Shown piece after piece: positions 18,667-35,087 of a stretch of DNA of 39,609 nt. Where the stretch lies: assembly GCA_016199935.1 (NCBI GenBank), contig JACQFS010000142.1, positions 1 to 39,609 on the forward strand. Direction: 5' to 3'. A program made the position numbers and the translations under genes. Position 1 is the stretch's first letter. Each line of letters starts with the position of its first letter. Source of the DNA: Verrucomicrobiota bacterium (lineage in GTDB: Bacteria; Verrucomicrobiota; Verrucomicrobiia; Limisphaerales; JACQFS01). A model generated the notes under the pieces. It was not told the origin of the DNA. It saw only the letters and a program-made list of their open reading frames with translations, and searched no databases.

Positions 18667-18691
18667 AATGACGAATGACGAATGACGAATG
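18667..18691. repeat. Tandem heptamer repeat AATGACG
   Basis: Three and a half copies of AATGACG fill most of the 39-bp gap between scpB and pheA. The same heptamer forms one arm of the element at 24183-24258, so this is probably a single-arm relic of that family. Confidence 0.85.
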
Positions 18692-24177: not shown

Positions 24178-24498
24178 TCAGGAATGACGAATGACGAATG
24201 ACGAAACGTGAGTCGCCGCGGGGGCCGGTTCGCCATTCGGCATTCGGCATTCGGCATTTTTTCCGGGCACCGGGTCGTGCCCGCCGCCGCCCCACGGCTG
24301 GCAGCGGCAAAGGCGATGCGCCGAGAGCAAAGTTCCCTTCGCCGCGCCGTGCAGCCGCACGGCCTCGAGCGCATACGCGGAGCAACTCGGCGTGAAACGG
24401 CAATGCGCCGACGGCCCGAACACGAGCGGCAGCAGCGGCGAGAGCGTCCACCGATACAGCCGCACGAGCAGCACGAGAAAATGTTGGGCCGGATTCAC
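24178..24498 (-). CDS. yidD: Membrane protein insertion efficiency factor YidD, with a repeat-derived C-terminus
   Basis: 106 residues. The YidD core is complete ([50 protein letters not shown]) up to about residue 78. The remaining 28 residues do not look like YidD: residues 81-86 and 97-106 ([10 protein letters not shown]) are encoded by the two arms of the palindromic repeat at 24183-24258. Its start overlaps the rnpA stop by 4 bp. It is a small amphipathic protein that supports YidC-dependent insertion. Confidence 0.95.
24183..24258. repeat. Heptamer-array palindromic element forming the 3' end of yidD
   Basis: One arm (24183-24205) is a tandem AATGACG array; the other (24236-24258) is a tandem of its imperfect complement built on CGGCATT. 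The arms pair at 20 of 23 positions, and all three mismatches fall at the same place in each heptamer (A versus C). Confidence 0.9.
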
Positions 24499-32745: not shown

Positions 32746-34005
32746 ATGGCCACCATCGCCGTCCTCGGCACGCTCGACACCAAGGGCGAGGAGCACGCTT
32801 TTGTCGCGGACCTCATCCGCCGGCGCGGGCACCAGACGCTCGTCATTGATGTCGGCGCGCTGGAAGCGCCCAAGCTCAAGCCCGACATTACGCGCGAGGA
32901 AGTGGCGCGCTCTGGCGGCGTGGATCTCGCCGGACTCGTCGCGCGCAAGGACCGCGGCGAAACCGTGGCCGCGATGGCAAAGGCAGCGACGGCGATGCTG
33001 TCGAAACTGGTCGCGGAGAAAAATGTGGACGGCGTGATTTCACTCGGCGGCGGCGGCGGCACGGCCATCGCCACGGCGGCGATGCGCGCATTACCGGTGG
33101 GTTTTCCCAAGCTGATGGTCTCCACGCTCGCCAGCGGCAACACCGCGCAATACGTCGGCGTGAAGGACATCGTGATGATGCCCAGCATCGTGGACGTGGC
33201 CGGATTGAACCGCATCTCGCGCCAGATACTCACGCAGGCGGCGGGGGCGGTCTGCGGGATGGTGGAGTTCGGTGTCCAAGCTTCAGCCTGCTCCGGCACC
33301 GACACGCTGAAGCGTGGACACCAAGCGGCGGACAAACCCGTCATCGTCGCCTCGATGTTTGGCAACACCACGGACTGCGTGCAGGCGGCGCGGAAAATTC
33401 TGGAAGCGGCGGGCTACGAGGTGCTCGTGTTTCACGCGACGGGCATCGGCGGGCGCACGATGGAATCACTCATCGAGTCCGGCCTAGTCTCCGGCGTGCT
33501 CGACATCACCACGACGGAGTGGGCGGATGAAGTCGCGGGCGGCTTTCTCACGGCCGGCCCGACGCGCCTCGAAGCGGCGGCGAAGACCGGCACGCCGGCC
33601 ATCGTGACGCCGGGCTGCATTGACATGGTGAACTTCCACGGGCCCGAGTCCGTGCCGGCGAAATTCAAGGGCCGGAAATTTTATCCGCACAACCCGCAGG
33701 TCACGCTCATGCGCACCACGCCGGAGGAGAACGCGGCGATGGGAAAAATCTTCGCGGAGAAACTCAACGCCTCGCGCGGGCCGGTCACGGTGCTGCTGCC
33801 GCTCAAGGGTTTCAGCGTCATCGCCGCACCCGGCGGGCCGTTCCACGACGCGCCGGCGGACGCGGCGTTCGTCACCGCATTGAAGAAGGACCTGCGCGCG
33901 GGCATCGAAGTCATCGAAATGGATTGCCTCGTCAACGACCCGGCGTTCGCGCAGGCGTGCGCGGCGGCGTTGTTGAAGAACATCGGGAAAGCCAAACAAA
34001 CATGA
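32746..34005 (+). CDS. Tm-1-like ATP-binding protein (UPF0261) with an in-frame repeat insertion
   Basis: 419 residues. It matches the Tm-1-like/UPF0261 family from the start (TIAVLGTLDTKGEEHAFVAD, GVISLGGGGGTAIATAAMRA, GFPKLMVSTLASGNTAQYVG) to the end (GFSVIAAPGGPFHDAPADAA). Function in bacteria is unknown; plant Tm-1 binds viral helicase. Near residue 176, between GAVCGMVEF and KPVIVASMFGNTTDC, there is an extra segment (GVQASACSGTDTLKRGHQ) encoded by a palindromic repeat at 33271-33322. The following gene overlaps its stop (ATGA). Confidence 0.9.
   Translation: MATIAVLGTLDTKGEEHAFVADLIRRRGHQTLVIDVGALEAPKLKPDITREEVARSGGVDLAGLVARKDRGETVAAMAKAATAMLSKLVAEKNVDGVISLGGGGGTAIATAAMRALPVGFPKLMVSTLASGNTAQYVGVKDIVMMPSIVDVAGLNRISRQILTQAAGAVCGMVEFGVQASACSGTDTLKRGHQAADKPVIVASMFGNTTDCVQAARKILEAAGYEVLVFHATGIGGRTMESLIESGLVSGVLDITTTEWADEVAGGFLTAGPTRLEAAAKTGTPAIVTPGCIDMVNFHGPESVPAKFKGRKFYPHNPQVTLMRTTPEENAAMGKIFAEKLNASRGPVTVLLPLKGFSVIAAPGGPFHDAPADAAFVTALKKDLRAGIEVIEMDCLVNDPAFAQACAAALLKNIGKAKQT
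33271..33322. repeat. Palindromic element read in frame inside the Tm-1-like gene
   Basis: 17-bp arms at 33271-33287 and 33306-33322 match at 16 of 17 positions (GGTGTCCA-N-GCTTCAGC and complement). Each arm runs into a TTCA-loop hairpin (CACGC-TTCA-GCGTG on the minus strand at the right arm), the same loop as in the 9782 element. Confidence 0.9.
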
Positions 34006-34997
34006 AAAACCGGGAACGTCGAACATCAAACATCGAACACCGAACACCGAACCGCGCTCCGACCGGACACTTCGATGTTCGATGTTCGATGTTGGTTGTT
34101 CGATGTTTCTTTGTCGTCGCGCTGGCGTTCTCCTCCTCAGCCGCCGAGACATTCACCCCCGGCAGGACCTACTTCGGCCGCAGCAACTACATCGAGTATC
34201 TCGCCGGCGACCTGCCCTTCGTCCTCTCCGCGCCGCACGGCGGGCGCGAGAAGCCGGCCGAGCTGCCCGACCGCGAGAAGGGCACGTTCGCGTTCGACAC
34301 CAACACGCAGGAGCTGGCCCGCGCCATCCGGGACGAGTTCATCGCGCGCAGCGGACATTATCCGCACATCATCATCAGCCGCGTGCAGCGCCGGAAGCTC
34401 GACTGCAACCGCGAGATCGTCGAGGCCGCCGCCGGCCACAAACTGGCCGAGCAATCGTGGAACGAATACCACGCGTTCATCGACGCGGCGCAGAAGTCCG
34501 TGGTCGCGAAATACGGGAAGGGCTTCTTCATCGATCTCCACGGCCACGGCCACAAGGACGCGCGGCTCGAACTCGGCCTCGGCCACAACGCGGACGTTTA
34601 CGCAAAGCCGGACGCGGAACTGAACAAGCCGGACATTTACGAGCAGAGCACGCTGCGCCTGATCGCGCGCACGGGTAAGATTTCCTACACGGCGCTGCTG
34701 CGCGGCCCGACGAGCTTTGGCGCGCTGATGGAGAAGCAGGGTTTCCCCGCGACGCCCAGCCCCGGCAAGCCCGTGCCCGGCACGCCCTATTTCAATGGCG
34801 GCTACACCGCGCGCCGCCACTCCGCGGTGGAAAATTTTGCCGGGCTCCAGATCGAATCCAACTCCAAGGGCGTGCGCGACACCGAGGCGAATCGGAAAAA
34901 GTTCGCCACCGCGCTGTTCAACACCCTCAAGACCTACCTCGACGCGCACCTCGGCCTGAAGCTTTCGGACAACGGCGCGGGCCGGTCGTCGCAGTAG
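34002..34997 (+). CDS. Secreted N-formylglutamate amidohydrolase-like protein with a repeat-derived N-terminus
   Basis: 331 residues from ATG 34002 (overlaps the previous stop; GGGAAAG about 10 bases upstream); ATG 34089 is an alternative. Residues about 5-36 are encoded by the palindromic element at 34014-34108. From ATG 34089 the sequence is a signal peptide (MLVVRCFFVVALAFSSSAAE) whose first residues come from that repeat. The mature domain resembles FGase-family zinc amidohydrolases (PFVLSAPHGGREKPAELPDR, FFIDLHGHGHKDARLELGLG, AVENFAGLQIESNSKGVRD). Substrate unknown; such secreted members may act on peptides or cell-wall fragments. Confidence 0.82.
   Translation: MKNRERRTSNIEHRTPNRAPTGHFDVRCSMLVVRCFFVVALAFSSSAAETFTPGRTYFGRSNYIEYLAGDLPFVLSAPHGGREKPAELPDREKGTFAFDTNTQELARAIRDEFIARSGHYPHIIISRVQRRKLDCNREIVEAAAGHKLAEQSWNEYHAFIDAAQKSVVAKYGKGFFIDLHGHGHKDARLELGLGHNADVYAKPDAELNKPDIYEQSTLRLIARTGKISYTALLRGPTSFGALMEKQGFPATPSPGKPVPGTPYFNGGYTARRHSAVENFAGLQIESNSKGVRDTEANRKKFATALFNTLKTYLDAHLGLKLSDNGAGRSSQ
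34014..34108. repeat. Palindromic element supplying the N-terminus of the amidohydrolase-like gene
   Basis: 38-bp arms at 34014-34051 and 34071-34108 match at about 32 of 38 positions; both are arrays of TCGAACA-type units and their complement (TTCGATG). A 19-bp centre separates them. The frame is open throughout. Confidence 0.9.
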
Positions 34998-35016: not shown

Positions 35017-35087
35017 TTGCCCGCGAAGCACGCGAACAACGCGAAAGCAGAATTCCCCTTCGCGTCATTCGCGCGCTTCGCGGGCAA
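35017..35087. repeat. Palindromic element downstream of the amidohydrolase-like gene
   Basis: 29-bp arms at 35017-35045 and 35059-35087 match at 26 of 29 positions (TTGCCCGCGAAGC..., CGCGAA). It begins 20 bases after the stop and is followed by CTCTTTT, so it could also end transcription. The rest of the 206-bp gap shows only a plausible leader of the next gene. Confidence 0.88.

Follow-up and report, generated by a model that had tools for sequence, protein, structure and literature searches.

A palindromic element of about 99 bp, built of degenerate 7-base units, was found to lie in frame within the leader-coding region of an N-formylglutamate-amidohydrolase-like gene in the window (the whole 39,609-nt stretch of a Verrucomicrobiota contig that was analyzed). 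We consider it likely that the element was inserted in frame into the gene of an already exported hydrolase, with translation most probably starting at ATG 34002 and the added residues being removed together with the signal peptide. According to this scenario, the element would have entered the signal-peptide region after the start codon (MKN) but ahead of the hydrophobic core; translation would be coupled to the end of the UPF0261 gene upstream and run from 34002 through the element; about 33 residues would be added to the n-region; and signal peptidase would cut off all of them, so that the mature enzyme stays as it was and the insertion is presumably neutral. The 7-base period and the stop-free commonest forms of the arms, combined with a tolerant leader, would make such a site a safe harbor for the element. 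The coordinates of the features are collected in Table 1.

Table 1. Features of the hydrolase leader region and its surroundings (positions are those of the window)
Feature	Position	Strand	Remarks
Upstream UPF0261 gene, 419 aa	32746..34005	+	PF06792, PF23189
Probable original start with its next two codons, ATG AAA AAC (MKN)	34002..34010	+	In frame through the whole element
Heptad-repeat palindromic element	34012..34110	.	In-frame translation ...RERRTSNIEHRTPNRAPTGHFDVRCSMLVVRCF
Left arm, degenerate (TCGAACA)n	34015..34051	+	Codes polar/basic SNIEHRT-type residues
Loop between arms	34052..34070	.	No stop codon in the hydrolase frame
Right arm, (TTCGATG)n	34071..34107	+	Codes MFDVRCS/MLVVRC-type residues
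Alternative start proposed in the first-pass annotation	34089..34091	+	Within the hairpin stem; starts MLVVRCFFVVALAFSSSAAE
Signal-peptide hydrophobic core and c-region, FFVVALAFSSSAA	34107..34145	+	Nearly all outside the element
Mature N-formylglutamate-amidohydrolase-like protein	34146..34997	+	PF05013 match, FGase relatives; function predicted

The TCGAACA-type repeat described in the first-pass annotation proved to be real, with a palindrome and hairpin far above chance. The arms of this inverted repeat, 37 nt each, are 86% complementary and enclose a loop of 19 nt; the right arm was detected by TRF as a period-7 tandem repeat (TTCGATG x5.3) and carries an ATG in each frame (34075, 34082, and 34089), and five of the ten TCGAACA heptamers of the whole window fall inside an 85-base stretch of the element. 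The RNA hairpin of the element was calculated at -50.0 kcal/mol compared with -26.6 +/- 3.4 kcal/mol for shuffled sequences (z about -6.9), a value equaled by 0 of 200 shuffles. Other short period-7 tandem repeats were seen in the window at 18667-18691 (AATGACG x3.6) and 24229-24258 (TTCGGCA x4.3), and a 29-nt inverted repeat of 90% complementarity (35017-35087), terminator-like or another repeat, directly follows the hydrolase gene.

The hydrolase frame is open from 33924 to 34997, and the amidohydrolase-like gene reads through both arms of the element, as had been noted earlier. The TGA stop of the upstream UPF0261 gene (34003-34005) overlaps the in-frame ATG 34002 as ATGA. The anatomy of the leader was found to be ATGAAAAAC followed by the element and then the hydrophobic core, all in frame and stop-free. 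The core, FFVVALAFSSSAA, starts at the final bases of the element, and the cleavage region is located beyond it; cleavage is likely before E (34146), as judged from the sequence and from the matching position between AAA and QPYVPG in an in-genome paralogue. The proposal that the element codes for the N-terminal part of the precursor is upheld: it supplies the n-region and, at the most, the opening residues of the hydrophobic stretch. When the N-termini were compared, element-free orthologues were found to have different N-terminal residues. The further suggestion that the element had created a new export signal did not hold. In FGase relatives (44-52% identity), a hydrophobic leader of their own precedes a conserved TYFGRSNYIEY motif, and the paralogue (G000:C172, MNRTRRAVVLIVLLALSLRAAAQPYVPG...) has one at the equivalent place, in both cases without the element; the nearest orthologues compared were about 50% identical and came from outside the genus and family. 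Since these orthologues and the paralogue are exported-type proteins with leaders of their own, export of the hydrolase is ancestral, and its creation by the element was rejected.

Copies of the element that adjoin a downstream gene fell into two groups: (i) a larger group, in which an ATG belonging to the gene comes directly after the element; and (ii) a second group, in which no ATG follows the element, the encoded protein opens with a signal-peptide or membrane segment, and an ATG (ATGAAA or ATGAAC in most cases) is positioned 4-13 nt to the left of the element. An in-frame, open element was present in 7 of 10 rows for genes without an ATG after it (6 loci, all signal or membrane leaders, the three exceptions not being clear leaders), compared with 2 of 29 for genes with their own ATG (Fisher p = 2.4e-4; this p-value is indicative because the sample was picked by an ATGA next to the left arm, gene calls were approximate, one locus was counted twice, and the groups were noticed before the test was enlarged). 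The window cannot enter this sample by its selection pattern. The same anatomy of ATGAAR, repeat, and hydrophobic core was identified in genes named by Pfam as T2SSK (GspK), OEP (TolC-like lipoprotein), FliP, LolA, and GH106, and beyond the frame-test sample as T2SSJ (GspJ) and ThuA; the TolC-like leaders comprised four element-bearing in-frame cases, the query included. A second TCGAACA-type copy in the genome of the window has the same placement in a ThuA-like gene (MRTNIEDPTSNIEHRTAPPRRTSMFSVLLLLFSALCLRAAD). Genomes not belonging to family f15 had ATGA 52 times near the ends of the element versus 11-19 times at distance, an enrichment that is no proof of a target site because it partly reflects operon junctions.

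The gspK gene of one genus provided both empty and filled sites. Most of the 30 orthologues have a short leader (e.g., MKLPLQPKRFAARREHASVLVIVLW), while in 8 a heptad element directly follows the ATGAAA or ATGAAC (e.g., MKIQHSTFNIQHRTPKPAQGGRALDVERSALNAECSQNQRGSVLIIVLW), and all 8 of these inserts are in frame. In four of them (G282, G254, G264, and G197), the element lacks any in-frame ATG, which leaves the upstream ATG as the only possible start apart from a rare GTG or TTG. A maximum-likelihood tree built from mature GspK required six gains or losses, forced by well-supported branches, which indicates that the presence of the element is recurrent or was repeatedly lost instead of tracing to one old event. 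In two genomes (L339 in G293 and L362 in G294), the gspK leader was found to carry a different GC-rich palindrome, about GGAGCGCCGGCATCTTGCCGGC; thus, this leader site takes more than one repeat family.

With regard to the start codon of the hydrolase, the 150 nt that follow the element contain no in-frame ATG, GTG, or TTG; translation must therefore begin inside the element or ahead of it, and a start downstream of 34108 is excluded in the signal region. Translation from ATG 34002 gives MKNR, the repeat, and FFVVALAFSSSAAE, stop-free into the mature protein. This start is favored because the anatomy in the window is the same as that of the analogues described above and because ATG 34089 is base-paired in the hairpin stem of the element. 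Counting against such a long precursor, the predicted signal peptide of 48 residues with an n-region of 34 residues is unusual; by eye, no Shine-Dalgarno-like sequence was seen before 34002. An alternative that we regard as unlikely is that the element replaced the ancestral N-terminus, with ATG 34089 as the start of a compact signal peptide (MLVVRCFFVVALAFSSSAA, followed by E). ATG 34089 does lie inside the right arm and begins MLVVRCFFVVALAFSSSAAE, as the first-pass annotation had pointed out; MLVVR + CFFVVALAF + SSSAA would be a well-proportioned signal peptide of 19 residues, and the right arm has an ATG to offer in each frame. Furthermore, an SBP_bac_5 lipoprotein of a Lentisphaerae MAG (L069, MLVVRCLLVFLILLLAAGC) has only an element-internal ATG and no in-frame ATG near the left of the element, and two other loci (L136 and L119) look similar, so a start of this kind is conceivable. 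However, if internal ATGs were generally enough, the frame should not matter, yet the upstream ATGs of the leader genes are in frame, including 8 of 8 in gspK, and the codon in the window is within a stem of -50 kcal/mol. ATG 34089 is therefore doubtful as the main start, stem-buried as it is and with the analogues favoring the upstream ATG, and it is probably not the one used for the hydrolase. The mature hydrolase is identical from either start.

We also considered whether the element acts between the cistrons as an RNA hairpin regulating the UPF0261-hydrolase operon (by mRNA end formation, attenuation, or coupling), its protein reading being incidental. Most copies of the family are between co-directional genes, often filling the gap from stop to start, and the hairpin of the window is far more stable than its shuffles (z about -6.9). 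Nonetheless, this explanation is improbable for the hydrolase, as the lack of any start for 150 nt after the element means that the gene is translated from within or before it, and as the frame is preserved in leader genes and also by the copies that lie within the RecG and BadF-type genes of the window's genome. That the hydrolase is a decayed pseudogene or a gene-calling artefact with its true start elsewhere is hardly credible: the FGase profile (PF05013, E 2.4e-8, 34.8 bits versus a gathering score of 28.9) is matched only in part (positions 2-68 of 219), but the 295 codons beyond the element are open, have a good coding score, and show about 50% identity to full-length orthologues.

Judged by sequence likeness, the element belongs to a PVC-group family of short palindromes, about 80-120 bp long, that are composed of degenerate 7-base units. 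Among 293 genomes sampled from the order, 45 contained the 21-base unit pattern, with the reversed control almost without hits, and two-armed copies were found in Limisphaerales, Opitutaceae, Chthoniobacterales, Lentisphaerae, and Planctomycetes MAGs. The collection of distinct copies of the heptad family reached 123 and later 170. Their arms are chains of TC[GC]AACA-like heptads with ends of about GGAAACATCGAAC and variable loops, the terminal consensus being about G(G/A)AAACATCGAAC. The openness of the heptads was ruled out as a special trait, as 53% of random 7-mers of the same composition are equally free of stops. By a rough codon-based gene call, 66 copies were placed between co-directional genes, 12 between divergent and 11 between convergent genes, and 17 inside a called gene. 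Two TCGAACA-type copies are present in the genome of the window, together with several loci that are more diverged; a third, one-mismatch hit of this type (C240) was rejected for want of repeat structure. Two of the diverged loci were observed in frame in the middle of genes of this genome, namely, those for a RecG helicase (L396, G000:C63) and a BadF-type ATPase (L397, G000:C76).

The mode of spread was also examined. Among 122 two-armed copies, the mean shared word at the flanks was 3.34 versus 3.03 for shuffled sequences (p 0.04), at best a weak signal of target-site duplication, and shared 6-mers were not in excess. No match to Y1_Tnp was found in the element-rich genome G017, and several element-free genomes have Y1_Tnp; the presence of the element does not seem to track Y1 transposases, and no mobilizing enzyme or parent transposon was found. 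Because no clear target-site duplication and no mobilizing enzyme were found, insertion, as opposed to growth of the repeat in place, is something that we infer.

Among the papers searched, none matching the repeat or its peptides was found, and the family was compared with known systems. Rickettsia palindromic elements are described as palindromes of about 100-150 bp that are found in frame in unrelated genes, translated, and apparently tolerated (Ogata 2000, 2002; PMC10969869). The element resembles them in being a 99-bp palindrome that occurs in frame in unrelated genes with the frame kept open, but it differs in host group, in its degenerate heptad unit, and in having many in-frame copies in cleavable leaders, recurrently at the same place; the likeness is one in the way of working, drawn from published descriptions, and we do not file the element as a Rickettsia palindromic element. 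The RU-2 repeat forms part of the predicted signal peptide of YPO1552 of Y. pestis, whose relatives have unrelated signal peptides (Delihas 2007, PMC2759123). In both systems part of a signal peptide comes from a small repeat; however, RU-2/YPO1552 is a single predicted enterobacterial case, and the account of it gives no frame statistics, empty sites, recurrence, or heptads in the part that describes this repeat. The GTAG/CGTC REPs, which are associated with RAYT transposases, occur in PVC bacteria including Opitutus terrae, some of them at protein N-termini (PMC3733652). Like these REPs, the heptad elements are short palindromes placed mostly between co-directional genes; unlike them, they have no GTAG/CGTC at the palindrome end, are longer, and show a heptad period. 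With MITEs and ERIC-type elements they share a small, non-autonomous-looking, dispersed form with terminal inverted repeats, but no clear target-site duplication and no parent transposon were found.

Overall, the repeat looks like selfish DNA that survives in leaders because the tips of signal peptides tolerate almost any residues. We tentatively suggest, as somewhat less than an even prospect, that heptad palindromes across the PVC group enter the n-regions of Sec and pilin leaders by preference or are retained there by preference. If so, removable leaders would give selfish DNA a safe harbor in the genome and would repeatedly give rise to parallel lengthening of leaders, and a hairpin at the translation start might affect expression. 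Protein-coding palindromes are known mainly from Rickettsia, where the cause of their tolerance is unclear; here it would be evident, as the leader is cut off. In-frame palindromes as such are already known; those of the present family are often in removable leaders. As gspK offers empty and filled sites within one genus and several independent changes, the idea that repeats survive where the protein is cleaved away is directly testable. In addition, annotated N-termini in these genomes (MFDVRCS..., SNIEHRTS...) can be repeat-derived.

Several variants of the family were also observed. Long pure heptad arrays occur at G049:C25:21040-21214 (>20 units) and in G264:C20 and G035:C323, which gives the impression of additional, satellite-like expansion of the unit. 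In family f15 (G069, G099, G120, and G139), the element carries one more inverted repeat on the outside, ATGAACCCGGAGG ... CCTCGGTTCAGGGG. A near-perfect copy on a contig of a Desulfocapsa MAG (L073, JAOZLM010000007.1) points to either horizontal transfer or a misbinned contig. With gene names assigned by eye, copies were seen in the gap before an apparent nuoL in several genomes (L100, L134, L189, and L281) and, in three families (L043, L089, and L174), ahead of a UbiA-like gene whose start may come from the element (MFSLINKWLSFVRFSH...).
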